Shown here: one piece after another, positions 22,513 through 38,377 of the stretch
Layout: every line of letters starts with the position of its first letter
Position numbering within the stretch: the first letter of the stretch is position 1
Source of the DNA: Crocinitomix sp.
Lineage (GTDB): Bacteria > Bacteroidota > Bacteroidia > Flavobacteriales_D > Crocinitomicaceae
Direction: 5' to 3'
Length of the DNA: 64,000 nt
NCBI GenBank assembly: GCA_013138735.1
Contig: WTCE01000100.1
Span: 1 to 64,000 of the forward strand
Position numbers and translations under genes: made by a program
The notes under the pieces: generated by a model
The model's input: the letters and a program-made list of their open reading frames with translations, nothing else
Told to the model about the DNA's origin: nothing
Database searches by the model: none

Positions 22513-22549
22513 TCTTGTACCTTTGCATCTTTTAAGATTTAAATTTCAC

Positions 22550-24487
22550 ATGGTTAGGTTCGGAGGATTATCATATCATTTACCCCAAGGGTTCTTATAT
22601 AAAGACATTTCTTTATTCATTGACCGTGGTGATAAAATCGGTTTAACGGGTAAAAATGGAGTTGGAAAATCAACCTTATTGGGACTGATTTCGAAAGAAA
22701 TTGTACCAAGTGAAGGTACTGTAGTGATTGAAAAAGGAATTTCGATCGGTTATTTAACTCAGGATATCGAGATTAAAAAAGATATTTCTGTTCGAGAATA
22801 TATCGAAAAATCCAATACTGAAATTACTGAGATGAATGCGCGTTTGGATTTCGTGAATAACGAATTAACCACACGGACCGATTATGAATCGGAATCTTAT
22901 TTAGGATTAATTAATGAAGTAACAGTAATTAATGATCGCCTAACGGTTTTAGATGCGCATGCTTTTGCAGAGCGAATTGAGATTGTTTTAAAAGGACTTG
23001 GTTTTAAGCAAGAGGAATTTGATAACCAAATTGGAAGTTTTAGTGGTGGTTGGCAAATGCGTGTTGAATTAGCGAAACTCTTGGTAAATAATCCTGAGGT
23101 ATTGTTAATTGATGAGCCTACCAATCACTTAGATATTGTTTCAATTCAATGGCTAGAGAATTATTTAAAGAATTTTAAAGGTGGATTAGTTCTAATTTCT
23201 CACGATAAAAGATTTTTGGATAATGTAACCAATAGAACGATTGAAATTGCAAATCAACGCTTGTATGATTATAAGTGTAATTATTCGCGTTATTTAGTAT
23301 TGCATGCCGAAGAAATGGAGCGTGCTTTAGCAGCTAAAAAGAACCAAGATCGTGAAATAAAACGAACTGAAGAGCTGATTAATAAATACCGAGCAAAAGC
23401 GAATAAAGCCTCTTTTGCGCAAAGTTTAATCAAGAAATTGGATAAAGTTGAGCGAATAGAAGTAGATACCATTGCGCGTAAAGCTTTTAACCTAAAGTTC
23501 ACAATGCAACAAGCATCAGGTAAAAGGGTGTTGGACATGAATGGCCTTAAAAAAACGTTTGGAACTAAAACTATTTTTGATGGATTAGAAGTTGTATTGG
23601 CTCGTGGAGAAAAAGTCGCTCTTTTGGGGCCAAATGGTGTTGGGAAATCTACCTTGATTAAATGTGTTACGGAAGAAATGTCTTATGACGGGCAAATTGA
23701 ACGTGGACATAATGTAACGGTGGGTTATTTTGCTCAAGACTCAGCTGAAAAGCTAGACGGTGAAAAAACGGTTTTTAAAACCATTGATGATATCGCTAAA
23801 GGTGAGAAGAGAAAAGATATTCGTGCTATTTTAGGAGCATTTTTGTTTGGTGGAGAAGAATCTGAAAAAAGAGTTAAAGTTTTATCTGGTGGAGAGCGAA
23901 CGCGCTTGGCAATTTGTAAATTATTATTTCAAGAATTTAATTTCTTGATAATGGATGAGCCTACCAATCACCTAGATATTCAAAGTAAGGATATCCTAAA
24001 GGAAGCCCTTAAAAATTATGAAGGAACCTTATTATTGGTTTCACATGATAGAGAGTTCTTAGATGGTTTGAGTAATAAAATTTGGGAAATCAAAGAAGGC
24101 AAGATCAAAACGCATTATTTTGGTGTCAACGAATTCTTAGAGCGCATCAATTATGAGGAAGCTGAAATGGCCTCAACCAAAAATTCTAAATCTGCCGAAA
24201 AACCTAAGAAGGTAGAAGTGGCGAATCAATTATCTTGGGAAGATCAAAATCTCTTGAAAAAGTTAGAGAAAAAAATCAAAAAATACGAGCGCAAAATTTC
24301 TGATTTAGAGGTGGAGTTGAAAGAGAAAACTACTACACTAGAAGAAACTCCTTACGATCAAACGGATCAATTCAATGCGGCTACAGAAGCTTTCAAAAAT
24401 ACTGAAGCTGAATTGGATAAAGCAATGACTATTTGGGAGGAATCTGAAATGGAATTGGATGAATTGAATACGCGAATTAAGGCTTAA
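22550..24487 (+). CDS. ABC-F family ATP-binding cassette protein
   Basis: Track ORF starts at a TTG (22523); the first ATG is at 22550 (MVRFGGLSYHLPQGFLYKDISLFIDRGDKIGL). Two Walker A/signature pairs (GKNGVGKST, LIDEPTNHLD; GPNGVGKST, MDEPTNHLD). Confidence 0.93.
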   Translation: MVRFGGLSYHLPQGFLYKDISLFIDRGDKIGLTGKNGVGKSTLLGLISKEIVPSEGTVVIEKGISIGYLTQDIEIKKDISVREYIEKSNTEITEMNARLDFVNNELTTRTDYESESYLGLINEVTVINDRLTVLDAHAFAERIEIVLKGLGFKQEEFDNQIGSFSGGWQMRVELAKLLVNNPEVLLIDEPTNHLDIVSIQWLENYLKNFKGGLVLISHDKRFLDNVTNRTIEIANQRLYDYKCNYSRYLVLHAEEMERALAAKKNQDREIKRTEELINKYRAKANKASFAQSLIKKLDKVERIEVDTIARKAFNLKFTMQQASGKRVLDMNGLKKTFGTKTIFDGLEVVLARGEKVALLGPNGVGKSTLIKCVTEEMSYDGQIERGHNVTVGYFAQDSAEKLDGEKTVFKTIDDIAKGEKRKDIRAILGAFLFGGEESEKRVKVLSGGERTRLAICKLLFQEFNFLIMDEPTNHLDIQSKDILKEALKNYEGTLLLVSHDREFLDGLSNKIWEIKEGKIKTHYFGVNEFLERINYEEAEMASTKNSKSAEKPKKVEVANQLSWEDQNLLKKLEKKIKKYERKISDLEVELKEKTTTLEETPYDQTDQFNAATEAFKNTEAELDKAMTIWEESEMELDELNTRIKA

Positions 24488-30184: not shown

Positions 30185-30649
30185 AATAGAGTAATCAACA
30201 AGTGATAGTCAATAAGGTAGTTTTAAAAGTGTCGTTCTAAGGCGTTTCTGTTAAGAAATGAACGGAGGGGGCAGGTTGAATTCATCCGTTTTCATCAAAA
30301 TTCATACCCGCTCTATAGCCTAACTTTGAAGCTTGTATAGGCATTATTAGTCAGTTTCTGAGTTACGGTCATTCCGCTACCTATTCTTCTAAATTGAATA
30401 ATTAAAGTTTACATGGCTGAACTATTATGTAGGCGAATTACACATCTATTTGCTTATAGTCAGGTATTAATACGTGTTATAAAAAAGCGAAAATATCACT
30501 ATTTTAGAGTATGTGAATTGATGTATTTGTCAGTTGCAGAATAATGTTGCATTAACCACTTTATTGATGAAAAATAGGCCATAGCATATATTGATTCCAC
30601 TCCACCTTTTACATTTTTAGTTTTTAATGGGAAGGAGTATTTATCCAAG

Positions 30650-30919
30650 CAACCATCAACTCATCACCCCAGCACCCCGGCACCCAATCACCCCATCACC
30701 CCATCAAATCATCAGTCAATCAAATCATCAAACTATCAGTCAATCAAATCATGAACCCTTCAACTCATCACCCCACTATACAATCAAACCATCAGCCAAT
30801 CACCCCACTAAACCATCAAACCATCAAACCATCAAACCATCAAATCGTCAGTCAATCAAATCATCAAACCATCAACCAATCAACCCATGAAATCATCAGT
30901 CAATCAAATCATCAAAACC
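30650..30919. repeat. Degenerate G-poor simple repeat (CATCAAAC / CAATCAAATCAT units)
   Basis: ~270 bp composed of variants of ATCAAACC, AATCAAATCATC, AGTCAATC, ATCACCCC; very few G on the + strand; ends at the comM stop codon. Confidence 0.85.
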
Positions 30920-32452
30920 TCACCCCGCCATCCCCCGATCCAAACTCCTAAACTGTATCGCCTCCGCCAAATGTTGTGGTAAAATTGGAATTGAAGCTTC
31001 CATATCTGCAATAGTGCGCGCCACTTTTAAAATTCGAGCATAAGAGCGTGCAGACAAACCCATTTTCTCCATGGCCTTTTTTAATAACTCTTGACCAACG
31101 TCATCAATGGCGCAAAATTTTTCAATCAATTTCGGCTCCAACTGTGCGTTATAATGCAAATTAGGAATAGCTGTGAACCTTTCTTCTTGCATTTTTCGTG
31201 TTTGTACCACACGCTTGCGAATAATTTCACTTGACTCCCCCTTTTCCTTAGTGGACAATTTTTCGAAGGGAACCGCCGGAACTTCAATATGCAAGTCAAT
31301 CCGATCCATCAAAGGGCCTGATATTTTATTCATATAACGCTTCACAATATATTCCGGATCTGAATTAGGATCATTGGGGTCGTAAAAATTGCCAGACGGG
31401 GAGGGATTCATTGACGCAACTAGCATAAAACCTGCAGGATAATCTACAGACATTTTTGCACGAGAAATGGAGACTACACGATCCTCTAGGGGTTGCCGCA
31501 TGACTTCTAAAACTTGGCGTTTATATTCTGGTAGCTCATCTAAAAACAAAATACCGTTATGCGCCAATGAAATTTCACCCGGTTTCGGATTTGATCCTCC
31601 GCCTACTAGTGCAACATCCGAAACAGTATGGTGCGGAGATCGAAAGGGCCTTTTTGTCAATAAACCTTTATTCGCACCAACTAATCCTGCAACAGAATGA
31701 ATCTTTGTAGTTTCCATTGCTTCGGCAGTTGTGAGCGGAGGCAAAATAGACGGCAGCCGTTTGGCCAACATGGTTTTACCAGAACCTGGGGGGCCAATTA
31801 ACAAGATGTTATGTCCACCGCATGCAGCAATTTCTAAAGCGCGTTTTACGTTTTCTTGTCCTTTCACATCCGAAAAATCTATGGCAAATTCACCGTATAC
31901 TTCTTCATGTTCTTCTGGAATGAATTGAACGGGTGTTAGTTCTATTTCGCCATTAAAAAAATCAACAACTTCTGTTATTTTCTTGATGCCGTAAATTTCT
32001 AAGCCTTCAACAATTGAAACCTCTTGTGCGTTTTGTTCGGGCAATATAAAGCCTTTAAACCCCAATTCTTTTGCTTTAATAGCCATTGAAAGCGCTCCTT
32101 TTATTGGGCGCAAACCACCGTCGAGTGAAAGTTCTCCCATAATGACATAGTTGGCAATATTCTCCGAATCAATTTGCTCACTTGCAGCCAATATTCCTAC
32201 GGCAATAGATAGGTCATAAGCCGAACCTTCTTTACGAATGTCCGCTGGGGCCATATTTATTGTGACTTCTTTACGCGGGAATTTCAAAAGGGTATTCGTA
32301 AACGCAGCTTTAATGCGCTGGTGACTTTCTTTGACAGCACTGTCTGGCAGTCCAACCAAAAAGAAATTAATGCCTTTTCCTACATTGGTTTCTATTGTAA
32401 TTTGAATCGCTTCAATCCCATATACAGCAAAGCCGTATGTTTTAATAAGCAT
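30920..32452 (-). CDS. comM: YifB/ComM family Mg-chelatase-like AAA ATPase
   Basis: 510 aa; MLIKTYGFAVYGIEAIQITIETNVGKGINFFLVGLPDSAVKES, GPPGSGKTMLAKRLPSILPPL. Confidence 0.95.
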   Translation of the reverse strand: MLIKTYGFAVYGIEAIQITIETNVGKGINFFLVGLPDSAVKESHQRIKAAFTNTLLKFPRKEVTINMAPADIRKEGSAYDLSIAVGILAASEQIDSENIANYVIMGELSLDGGLRPIKGALSMAIKAKELGFKGFILPEQNAQEVSIVEGLEIYGIKKITEVVDFFNGEIELTPVQFIPEEHEEVYGEFAIDFSDVKGQENVKRALEIAACGGHNILLIGPPGSGKTMLAKRLPSILPPLTTAEAMETTKIHSVAGLVGANKGLLTKRPFRSPHHTVSDVALVGGGSNPKPGEISLAHNGILFLDELPEYKRQVLEVMRQPLEDRVVSISRAKMSVDYPAGFMLVASMNPSPSGNFYDPNDPNSDPEYIVKRYMNKISGPLMDRIDLHIEVPAVPFEKLSTKEKGESSEIIRKRVVQTRKMQEERFTAIPNLHYNAQLEPKLIEKFCAIDDVGQELLKKAMEKMGLSARSYARILKVARTIADMEASIPILPQHLAEAIQFRSLDRGMAG

Positions 32453-32505: not shown

Positions 32506-32848
32506 ATTAATTACACGTCTATTTAACGATTGTTTTTTAATCAAAAAATTGTGTTTAGGTTTATTTAGATTAAATATAAACAATTGAAAATGAGGAATGT
32601 AGCTAAAAAGCGAAAACTGATAAAAGTCAGTTTCTACTTAGCGCGGTTTTAAAGGGTTTAAAGGTGTTTATTCAAAATATTGGGCCTCATCTTGAATGCT
32701 AAACTGATTATTGTCAGCTTTTAAAATCAATAAATATATAATCACCTGATAAACAATTGTTTGTCGCCATACTTTTTAAGCCTTTTAACTGGGGTGAAAT
32801 ATTTTTTATAGGTGTTTGTACGTATTGATTCGTAGGGAGATAAATGGA

Positions 32849-32856
32849 TAAATTTG
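32849..32856 (+). promoter_or_regulatory. Candidate Bacteroidota-type -7 element (TAnnTTTG) upstream of the first precursor
   Basis: TAAATTTG, with a TTG at 32825-32827 about 21 bp upstream; ~90 bp before the ATG at 32947. Confidence 0.35.
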
Positions 32857-32946: not shown

Positions 32947-33120
32947 ATGAAAACTAAATTAAACTTAGAAGAATCAAGAATTCTCTCTGATGATGAATTG
33001 GGGAAAATGAAAGGTGGACGTCTAGACGCTTGTGGCGGAGGATGTGAGCCAGGTTGCAAACATGCTTGTAAACCAGGAGAAAAATATGCAAAGGAAGAGG
33101 TTGAGAGAGGATTGGGTTAA
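32947..33120 (+). CDS. RiPP precursor peptide 1 (57 aa; missed by the ORF track)
   Basis: MKTKLNLEESRILSDDELGKMKGGRLDACGGGCEPGCKHACKPGEKYAKEEVERGLG; GG-type leader end, CX3CX3CX3C core; close homologue of precursor 2. Confidence 0.88.
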   Translation: MKTKLNLEESRILSDDELGKMKGGRLDACGGGCEPGCKHACKPGEKYAKEEVERGLG

Positions 33121-33279: not shown

Positions 33280-33453
33280 ATGAAGACGAAATTAAATTTA
33301 GGAGAATCTAGAATTCTCTCCAATGAGGAATTAGGAAAACTAAAAGGTGGGCGTTTAGATGCTTGCGGAGGTGGATGTGAGCCAGGGTGCAAACATGCTT
33401 GTAAACCGGGGAAAAAGTATGCTGAAGACGCCGTTGAAGAGAGAGAAGGCTAA
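33280..33453 (+). CDS. RiPP precursor peptide 2 (57 aa; missed by the ORF track)
   Basis: MKTKLNLGESRILSNEELGKLKGGRLDACGGGCEPGCKHACKPGKKYAEDAVEEREG. Confidence 0.88.
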   Translation: MKTKLNLGESRILSNEELGKLKGGRLDACGGGCEPGCKHACKPGKKYAEDAVEEREG

Positions 33454-33521: not shown

Positions 33522-33710
33522 ATGAAAACATAATTAGGAGTAGAAGGTGTTAAAATTTGTTCCGTTAAAGAATTAGTAAAAATGAAAGGTGGAATTTTGG
33601 ATCCATGTGCAGGCGGATGTGAAGCAGGTTGTAAACAGGGGTGTAGCCTAGTAGCAGAGTTAGTGGTGGAAGGTTTCGATATGAATAATACCTATTCTGA
33701 TGCCTACTAA
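33522..33710 (+). pseudogene. RiPP precursor 3 with in-frame TAA at codon 4
   Basis: MKT*LGVEGVKICSVKELVKMKGGILDPCAGGCEAGCKQGCSLVAELVVEGFDMNNTYSDAY; the frame continues to TAA at 33708-33710; stop at 33531-33533. Confidence 0.7.
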
Positions 33711-33757
33711 CGTGCTTGATGATACACCTGATTAAAAGACTAATTGAAAATAATCAT

Positions 33758-33886
33758 ATGAAAACTAATATTGATGTTTCAAAAATAAAAATTGTCAAGC
33801 GCAAGAAAGTAGATGATGGACCGAATAGAGGGCTTGGTAAAAGTAAAGTCGGGAGGAAAATAGCTCGGTTAGAAAAAAAAGAGTAA
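33758..33886 (+). CDS. Small basic ORF (42 aa) sharing the MKTN start context
   Basis: MKTNIDVSKIKIVKRKKVDDGPNRGLGKSKVGRKIARLEKKE; no Cys core. Confidence 0.35.
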   Translation: MKTNIDVSKIKIVKRKKVDDGPNRGLGKSKVGRKIARLEKKE

Positions 33887-33940
33887 CAAAGCTGGATGCA
33901 GTGACATATGAGTTCAGTTAAATCATAAATACCAAAACTT

Positions 33941-33997
33941 ATGAAAACAATATTTGACTTGAATGAAATGGTAGTCTTAACAGATGTTAATATGTAA
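33941..33997 (+). pseudogene. Possible precursor leader remnant (18 aa)
   Basis: MKTIFDLNEMVVLTDVNM, leader-like then TAA; a Cys-containing stretch (..KRKGHNCVPTCYETW) follows in another frame. Confidence 0.3.
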
Positions 33998-34262
33998 CAT
34001 TTTAAAAAGAAAAGGTCACAATTGTGTGCCGACATGTTATGAAACATGGTAAGCCAAGAGATAAATTTAAGAGCAGAGACTGGTTCCAAATAGAGAATAT
34101 AAGAAGGAGTCGGATTCTTAGTTGGGTTAGATCCAATTCCGAATTAATCATCCAGATACATGAAAAATAAGAAGTAGAGTTTATTGATTGTATGATTTAA
34201 AGCGTAGCTAATTATCTGCAATTGAAGTACGTAAGTGTAGTTTTAATTATAAAAAAAAAGAT

Positions 34263-34448
34263 ATGAAAACGTTAATGAATTTAGAGTTGAGCAAAATTTT
34301 GACCACAGAAGAATTAGCTGGGTTGAAAGCAGGTGCAATTGGAGAACCTTGCAGAAGAGGTTGTAAAGATGGATGTAAACAAGGATGCCTTGCGGGGCAG
34401 AAAGATAAGTCAGAAACAGAAAAAGTAGAGATGTTTGTACAACCTTAA
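34263..34448 (+). CDS. RiPP precursor peptide 4 (61 aa)
   Basis: MKTLMNLELSKILTTEELAGLKAGAIGEPCRRGCKDGCKQGCLAGQKDKSETEKVEMFVQP; CX3CX3CX3C core; 5 bp upstream of the radical SAM gene. Confidence 0.88.
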   Translation: MKTLMNLELSKILTTEELAGLKAGAIGEPCRRGCKDGCKQGCLAGQKDKSETEKVEMFVQP

Positions 34449-35986: not shown

Positions 35987-38377
35987 ATGAAGTATTTTTT
36001 GGTAATCATACTGATTTTGCCCCTTTCTCTAATGACATTTGGGCAGGGTGAAATGGAAAAAGGAATGATTAAGGGGAGAATTGTTACAGTAGATAATTCT
36101 CCTATTCCATTTTCCTCTATTCGACTTATGAAATTTTCAGACTCTTCATTGGTCAGAGGAGTTTTCTCTGATACTCTTGGTTCTTTTCAATTTGAAAAAG
36201 TTGAATTTGGGCGCTATTATATTGAAATTACTAATGTCCAATTTGACCCCGTTCAATTTGTGGTGAGTTTAGATTTGGAGAAGCTTGTTCTTGAAGATGT
36301 CAAATGTATTCTAAATAACACATACCTAGATCGAGTAGAAGTTATTGGCAAAAGAGATGTTATCATTTACAGTGACGAAGGTGTGATACTCAATGTGAGT
36401 GGGACGCCACTAGCAAATGGGAGAAGTGCTTTGGATATTTTAAAATTTGCTCCAAATGTTAGTACTAGTGGAGGTGTTCAAATTTTAGGAAGCAATTCTG
36501 TAAAAGTGATCATGGATGGGAAAGAACTCAACCTTTCTGGAAAGCAGTTGGAATCCTTTTTAAGTGGGCTCATGTCCGAAAATGTAAATTCCATTGAAAT
36601 TATTGATAAACCAGGGGTTGGATATGATGGAGAAACAGGTGGTGTTATTGTTATTAATACTATAAATACACAGAATGGATATTCTATTAGTGGTTTTGGA
36701 ACCTACACTCAAAAAACAAAACCTGGGGCCGTTGCAGGATTAAACCTTTTTTTAACTAAAAATAAATTTAGACTTTTCTCCCAGGTTTATTTTGCGAATA
36801 ACCCGAATTTTAATACTGAACAATCAGAGTTTTTTGTCCAAGAAGAGGATTATTTCTTGAGGAGAACGGCCTCATCATCCTTTTCTAATCAGCGTGTTGA
36901 ACAAAGTCTTTCGGCCTCGTTAGATTACCAAATCAATCCTGGGTCTACCTTAGGAGTCATGTATAGCAACCGAAAAGATAATGAAGAGAATATAAAAAGC
37001 CATACAGAAAGCAATATAGAGACTTCTTCAATCGCGGATTCTTTGGCAATAATAGATGTTGAACGCGAGTTCTACTATACAGAAAATTCATTCAATGCAT
37101 ATTATAAAACAACTATTGATACATTAAATAGTAAGATTGAATTAGTTGCAGATTATAGTATTGTTGATCAGCTTTTTCCGAGTTTACAAGAAGTGAATTA
37201 CTCAGGTGCTGATGTTTATAATTCTTCTGGATATATTAGTCAGGATTATACTATTGCGACAGGTATTTTTTCAATTAAATCAAATCTGACAAAATATTTT
37301 AGAAATGGAAATCGTCTTACTGGTGGACTCAAATATTCGTCGAGTAACCCCAAAAAGGATTTTTCTAGTGTAAACGCTCTTTCTGAAGACACTTTGCGTC
37401 AAAGTTTTTTATTTGATTTTAAGCAGGATATTTATGCAGCCTACAGTTCTTATAAAATAAAATTGGATTCATTTTCTATTGTTGCAGGCGTAAGAGCGGA
37501 GTATACAACTAACTATTTTTCCGGCAATCTCAATCAAACTTATTTATCCTTATTTCCTAAATTGACCTTTATTCGCTTGTTTAACAAAAAACATACAGGT
37601 TACCTTACACTTTCTAAAAGTATTAGTCGCCCAAGTTTCAATCGTTATAACCCTTTTGTCAGTATTTCTAGTCCGAATATTACCTCTACTGGTAATCCTG
37701 ATATTTTACCTGTTGATATTTATAAAATCGGATTGACTGACGTATTTAAAAACAAAATTTATTCCTCTCTCTATTTTAAAAGATATGAGCATATAATCAC
37801 CACTTTACCTGTATTCGATACAGCTACCGAAATAACTTCATATTTGCCTGTTAATAATGCAAGTCGTAATAGTATCGGATTCAATTCATCCATTCCTTTT
37901 TCATTGACAAAATGGTGGGATGTCCGAGCATCCGTATATGTCGGTTATCAGCAAACATTAATTGATGAAGAAAATGAAACTGCTCAATCTTTTCAAGGTG
38001 CTTTGGGGAATGCAACCATGGTGAATATGTTTAGTTTGCCTGCGGGAATATCAATGGAGCTTTATTTTAATTATTCAGCTCCTTCAATTAGTGGTTATTA
38101 CAATTATAAATCCGTATTTGTAAGTAGTTGGGAACTACTAATTCCATTATTCAATGAGCGTGCTACGTTAGGGGTAATAGTTGACGATATTTTTAATACT
38201 AATAAAGAGCAGATGAGTTATACATTGAGTACTATTCGTTCAATAAGAACTGATAAATGGGACACAAGAACCTTGATGGTAATGTTCAGTTTTGATCTTT
38301 CTGGAGGAAATGGAGAGAGCTGGAATAAAAGAGATTCTGGTATCGAATCAGAAAAAAATCGCGCTAACGAAAAATAG
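35987..38377 (+). CDS. TonB-dependent-receptor-like outer membrane beta-barrel protein (CarboxypepD-regulatory-like N-terminus, plug)
   Basis: Track ORF begins at TTG 35972; ATG at 35987 gives signal peptide MKYFLVIILILPLSLMTFGQ. GRIVTVDNSPIPFSSIRLMK regulatory domain; plug region INTINTQNGY; aromatic-rich barrel. Confidence 0.85.
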   Translation: MKYFLVIILILPLSLMTFGQGEMEKGMIKGRIVTVDNSPIPFSSIRLMKFSDSSLVRGVFSDTLGSFQFEKVEFGRYYIEITNVQFDPVQFVVSLDLEKLVLEDVKCILNNTYLDRVEVIGKRDVIIYSDEGVILNVSGTPLANGRSALDILKFAPNVSTSGGVQILGSNSVKVIMDGKELNLSGKQLESFLSGLMSENVNSIEIIDKPGVGYDGETGGVIVINTINTQNGYSISGFGTYTQKTKPGAVAGLNLFLTKNKFRLFSQVYFANNPNFNTEQSEFFVQEEDYFLRRTASSSFSNQRVEQSLSASLDYQINPGSTLGVMYSNRKDNEENIKSHTESNIETSSIADSLAIIDVEREFYYTENSFNAYYKTTIDTLNSKIELVADYSIVDQLFPSLQEVNYSGADVYNSSGYISQDYTIATGIFSIKSNLTKYFRNGNRLTGGLKYSSSNPKKDFSSVNALSEDTLRQSFLFDFKQDIYAAYSSYKIKLDSFSIVAGVRAEYTTNYFSGNLNQTYLSLFPKLTFIRLFNKKHTGYLTLSKSISRPSFNRYNPFVSISSPNITSTGNPDILPVDIYKIGLTDVFKNKIYSSLYFKRYEHIITTLPVFDTATEITSYLPVNNASRNSIGFNSSIPFSLTKWWDVRASVYVGYQQTLIDEENETAQSFQGALGNATMVNMFSLPAGISMELYFNYSAPSISGYYNYKSVFVSSWELLIPLFNERATLGVIVDDIFNTNKEQMSYTLSTIRSIRTDKWDTRTLMVMFSFDLSGGNGESWNKRDSGIESEKNRANEK

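Follow-up and report, generated by a model that had tools for sequence, protein, structure and literature searches.

A TonB-receptor-like outer-membrane protein gene joined to a radical SAM maturase, and its possible place in C39-type RiPP transport

Described systems and the gene set of the window

Outer-membrane proteins (OMPs) of the TonB-receptor type next to RiPP genes are not new in Bacteroidetes. In graspetide loci, pfam14905 has been listed (Table 1, cluster 163), and export was suggested for the TonB-receptor-like proteins (PMC8939145). In the Bacteroidales clusters BGC6-9, a C39-peptidase ABC exporter (PCAT) and an OMP are present, a membrane fusion protein was not found, and the authors asked whether transport is distinct or such a protein was overlooked (PMC10352776). 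Both arrangements are on record (PMC8939145, PMC10352776). The only export precedent that we found for such barrels has a protein as its cargo: in Myxococcus xanthus, secretion of periplasmic PopC requires Oar, a TonB-dependent transporter with a CarboxypepD_reg domain (PMC6434023). MbnT is reported to import copper-methanobactin (PMC9601215, PMC3621798). Adaptors comprise membrane-proximal, beta-barrel, lipoyl and hairpin domains; when hexamerised, their hairpins form a tunnel toward a TolC-type channel (PMC8277102).

The DNA analysed here, in the following the window, is a stretch of 64,000 nucleotides from contig C71, which belongs to the draft genome of Crocinitomix sp. (6.84 Mb, assembly 97.5% complete). 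It contains precursor genes, a radical SAM/SPASM maturase gene and the gene for a TonB-receptor-like OMP as one compact operon-like set (Table 1). The stop codon of precursor 4 and the maturase start are 5 nt apart, and the ATG of the OMP gene at 35987 lies 15 nt behind the maturase gene, so that the tight coupling proposed in a first-pass annotation is confirmed by the ORF coordinates.

Table 1. Features of the precursor, maturase and OMP gene set (positions in the window)
Feature	Position	Strand	Remark
Promoter-like TTG-spacer-TAnnTTTG, Bacteroidota-type, before precursor 1	32825..32856	+	Pattern scan; a consensus match only (the + strand of the 64 kb has 5)
Precursor peptide 1, 57 aa, GG leader, core CGGGCEPGCKHAC	32947..33120	+	Four Cys, CX3C spacing
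Precursor peptide 2, GG leader, nearly identical to precursor 1	33280..33453	+	
Degenerate third precursor, stop at codon 4; GG site and CX3C core readable	33522..33710	+	Frame 0
Precursor peptide 4, 61 aa, divergent, leader end AG (KAG), core CRRGCKDGCKQGC	34263..34448	+	
Radical SAM/SPASM peptide maturase, 505 aa	34454..35971	+	PF04055 53.6 bits, PF13186 50.2 bits
OMP, 796 aa: signal peptide, CarboxypepD-reg-like domain, plug-like region, PF14905 barrel	35987..38377	+	

Precursors 1 and 2 and the degenerate copy have GG at the double-glycine site, and precursor 4 has AG. Scores of precursors 1 and 2 against TIGR04149, the model for GG-leader precursors modified by radical SAM enzymes, were 17.6 and 20.7 bits (cut-off 25 bits), and precursor 4 did not match this model. 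Likewise, TIGR04114 for CXXX repeat peptides (cut-off 20 bits) gave 13.2 and 13.3 bits, despite the plain CX3C spacing. The maturase scored above the cut-offs of PF04055, PF13186 and TIGR04085, and the three Cys of its CATDCEYC motif are invariant in the alignment; it reached no NCBIfam equivalog cut-off. Between precursors 2 and 4 (33522-34000), the stop-broken precursor and more leader-like remnants have the appearance of a decaying precursor array. Further upstream, at 30627-30951, low-complexity repeats (SNHQPITP-like when translated) separate two genes.

The OMP had initially been assigned a CarboxypepD-regulatory-like domain, a plug and a barrel. The barrel is clear (PF14905 OMP_b-brl_3, E=3.9e-62, 211 bits versus a gathering score of 27), whereas the CarboxypepD-reg domain of the window protein stays below threshold (PF13620, 27.5 versus 32.3 bits) and passes the Pfam cut-off in the homologues from loci L009, L055 and L054. 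The plug-like region has no Pfam match and is recognised by profile only: positions 142-244 of a five-homologue profile align with the plug of the colicin I receptor (Cir) and FepA (E=1.6e-7). An AlphaFold model of the OMP from a two-row alignment (pLDDT 31) was set aside.

Loci of this kind resemble BGC6-9 in that PCAT and OMP accompany a radical SAM protein or another modifying enzyme and no membrane fusion protein was recognised (PMC10352776), but comparable loci have truncated mini-HlyD genes beside the PCAT, and the window is without PCAT. With the graspetide loci the window shares a PF14905 OMP adjoining the RiPP cluster; here, however, the cluster has a radical SAM/SPASM protein for modification and a core with CX3C spacing. 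Oar is likewise a TonB-receptor-like barrel with an N-terminal CarboxypepD_reg domain, but it is counted as PF00593/PF07715 type and its cargo is the protein PopC, whereas the cargo of the PF14905 protein would be a short modified peptide. As in C39-ABC/HlyD/TolC systems of the colicin V type, a GG leader goes together with a C39-ABC, but the OMP clusters have a reduced adaptor and no TolC gene in the cluster. The methanobactin system also combines a RiPP with a TonB-type receptor gene (PMC9601215), but its modifying enzymes are unrelated.

The OMP in related maturase loci

Maturase homologues were not found around the genome of the window, order- and family-wide, at the thresholds used, and a plasmid search returned only one distant Paenibacillus split gene. 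The maturase family is commoner in another order. Among the 11 evaluable loci of this family, the window counted and L120, L126 and L127 left out as cut off or weak, 8 have the OMP in the cluster, and in 6 of these 8 a PCAT gene lies directly behind it. In L009, from a Flavobacteriales MAG, genes for a precursor (five Cys, CX3C), the radical SAM protein (42% identity), OMP and PCAT are consecutive. OMP and PCAT also accompany the maturase in L054, L055, L118, L119, L122 and L124, with CX3C cores in some of them. The gap between the maturase and OMP genes is 11-15 nt in the window, L054, L055 and L118, the ends overlap in L009, the gap is larger in L124, and genes intervene in L119 and L122. 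The OMP is absent from L121, L123 and L125, the first two of which lack PCAT as well, while L125 has PCAT and a full HlyD. As unrelated genomes of the phylum share this arrangement of maturase and OMP, it is beyond chance.

Several of these loci contain additional genes. In L118 (11350-16905), N-terminal PCAT fragments of 141 and 93 aa each lie next to another OMP copy; these are decayed duplicates of the OMP-PCAT unit, upstream of the intact one. In two CX3C clusters, L119 (2415-3155) and L122 (7504-8241), precursors and OMP are separated by the gene for a secreted protein of about 245 aa, by eye perhaps a relative of the FGE-sulfatase type. In L125 (6728-8938), a 736-aa membrane protein, RDD-like by eye, occupies the slot of the OMP between maturase and PCAT; the HlyD is full length.

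As a whole, the OMP family is not specific to RiPP clusters. None of the 28 close OMP relatives in the class is encoded near a PCAT or related radical SAM gene, and of six further full-length relatives in the same genome, five are outside RiPP loci. Both observations would suit a common PF14905 barrel that sits in the operon by accident, without taking part in the RiPP pathway. However, the maturase-OMP pairing at 8 of the 11 evaluable loci, in distant families, and the position of the window OMP as sister of the L009 OMP in the tree (support 99) argue against such an accident, which is already disfavoured and which we consider very improbable. RiPP-linked OMPs are grouped in the OMP tree, yet do not form a single clade. 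What the first-pass annotation would have taken as refuting its reading, an OMP equally common without RiPP genes, is seen in the family at large, but the nearest relative in the tree, from L009, is RiPP-linked.

Exporter genes in the window and in the genome

The first-pass annotation had seen no C39-peptidase ABC exporter in the window, and this stands: a PF03412 search of the genome gave nothing on contig C71, and a local HMM scan of the window detected neither a C39-ABC nor HlyD, just an unrelated ABC ATPase (22523-24487). PCAT remnants were not found downstream of the OMP, and the window has no truncated HlyD beside a PCAT of the kind seen in mini-HlyD/OMP export clusters. The window is a member of the OMP/PCAT kind of RiPP cluster without a PCAT of its own.

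An exporter is, however, encoded elsewhere in the genome. Of the four C39 matches in the genome, three are short stand-alone proteins and one is a full C39-ABC, encoded at C126:60168-62339 and followed by genes for HlyD (428 aa), a protein of the TolC type and another PF14905 OMP. The matches on C28 and C156 (258-352 aa, stand-alone, without ABC parts) were rejected as exporters. The C126 PCAT is 51% identical to the L009 PCAT, and its peptidase is intact, with Cys17, His91, Asp107 and Gln11 invariant in four PCATs including this one. As the single full C39-ABC of the genome, it is the only processing candidate in the assembly, and we infer that it would serve the window peptides in trans. It was rejected as the lost cognate of the window cluster, as it groups in the tree with ordinary PCATs and not with those of L009, L054 and L055. 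The idea that the OMP stands in for a missing PCAT is contradicted by its relatives, which have the OMP beside PCAT, and by the PCAT on C126.

Other small GG peptides of the genome were also noted. A small divergent ORF with MGGGC adjoins the C126 exporter. On C23 (L042, 14380-19480), two GG-leader peptides, one of them above the TIGR04149 cut-off, occur with a LanC-like protein and a CarboxypepD_reg/prolyl oligopeptidase protein; the locus is lanthipeptide-like, and no local exporter was recognised. On C66 (L043, 9814-10696), three small GG-containing peptides of one family are encoded in tandem, and an adjacent maturase or exporter was not recognised.

Adaptor length and the outer-membrane step

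Maturase clusters with both OMP and PCAT carry a mini-HlyD (59-218 aa) behind the PCAT, L054 with 379 aa being the exception. In an alignment, the clearest mini-HlyDs match residues 1-65 and 326-424 of full HlyD, so that they keep the C-terminal beta part as well as the membrane anchor and have lost the lipoyl/hairpin region; the shortest (L009, L078) are hardly more than the membrane anchor. Reports of a mini-HlyD were not found in the open-licence literature.

OMP presence follows adaptor length. A five-mini profile run over 324 genomes of another order yielded two size classes, with an OMP at 10 of 14 evaluable mini loci versus 3 of 16 full ones (p=0.009); contexts were fetched irrespective of the OMP, four more mini loci were cut by contig ends, and weak OMP matches of 51-104 bits were counted (L128, partial; L133, at 3.8 kb; L134; L146). 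Among 31 PCAT loci taken from the class, the adaptor is full length (at least 351 aa) and the OMP absent in 28, and PF14905 was accordingly rejected as a standard part of every PCAT locus. The three with an OMP (L078, L107, L108) have no adaptor or a stub (3/3 versus 0/28, p=2e-4). Pooled, the OMP is present at 13 of 17 loci with no or mini-HlyD versus 3 of 44 with full HlyD (Fisher p=1.6e-7), but the counts are not independent, as the mini-HlyD/OMP state has only one or two origins in the PCAT tree, where two changes suffice for the mini state, and a strong association is thus combined with little phylogenetic replication. The association spans RiPP types, including this maturase family, other radical SAM proteins (L078, L108) and the graspetide-like L107. 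Exceptions exist in both directions, with full HlyD and OMP together at C126, L054, L157, L159 and L160 (the last also with TolC), and mini-HlyD without OMP at L136, L142, L143 and L144. In L143 (2636-5288), the PCAT that precedes the mini-HlyD seemingly has no catalytic Cys (GDSGFACLAM).

A continuous duct is difficult to form with an adaptor that lacks its hairpin and lipoyl part, so that the PCAT probably releases its product into the periplasm. Another protein would then be needed at the outer membrane, for which the OMP of the cluster is the obvious candidate. We therefore propose that the OMP may serve a C39 RiPP transport module at the outer membrane and plausibly take the place of the TolC duct in mini-HlyD clusters, a proposal that we regard as evenly poised. 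The maturase would modify the Cys-rich core, and the C39-ABC would cleave at the GG site and carry the core across the inner membrane. The OMP would take the outer-membrane step, most simply as an exit route in a two-step export resembling that of Oar, and would substitute for the TolC duct at loci with a truncated adaptor. For the window peptides, cleavage and inner-membrane export could be provided in trans by the PCAT-HlyD-TolC-OMP locus on C126. That the window OMP itself is a barrel of the mini-HlyD/OMP export kind, working with such an exporter in trans, we put forward only tentatively. The outward direction is suggested by gene content. Of the roles initially named for the OMP, namely product release, uptake and self-recognition, release is the best supported, as the OMP tracks truncated HlyD across RiPP classes. 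Several observations count against export. Where full HlyD and OMP occur together, a second exit would be redundant, and Borrelia BesA is hairpin-less, yet functions with a TolC-like channel (PMC8277102). The four mini-HlyD loci and the three maturase loci without OMP, the small number of origins in the PCAT tree and the scatter of RiPP-linked OMPs over more than one clade also speak against it.

Since some loci, C126 among them, pair full HlyD with an OMP, there is room for receptor roles. The OMP might be an uptake receptor for the organism's own peptide, metallophore- or pheromone-like, with release via PCAT-HlyD-TolC. Its TonB-receptor architecture, the metal that Cys-rich CX3C cores could bind, the loci with full HlyD, TolC and OMP, and the methanobactin precedent (PMC9601215, PMC3621798) would all fit. 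Uptake leaves the pairing with truncated HlyD unexplained, however, the OMPs are linked to RiPPs of differing chemistry, and metal-handling genes were not recognised among the ORFs read around the loci; on balance we think it rather unlikely. OMP identity between clusters is only 19-28%, a strong divergence that would be expected for a specificity factor, and OMP copies are in tandem at L108 and L118, as might be the case for a self-recognition or immunity factor, or for the peptide's target or receptor site. Barrel receptors usually confer sensitivity, not immunity, and the correlation with HlyD would be unaccounted for, which makes this role improbable.

The mini-HlyD offers a testable answer to the question asked for BGC6-9 (PMC10352776): the adaptor would be present, its TolC-reaching part would be missing, and the barrel would perform the outer-membrane step. 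If this is true, it would account for a GG-leader cluster without its own exporter in the window, and small peptides could regularly be exported through TonB-receptor-like barrels.
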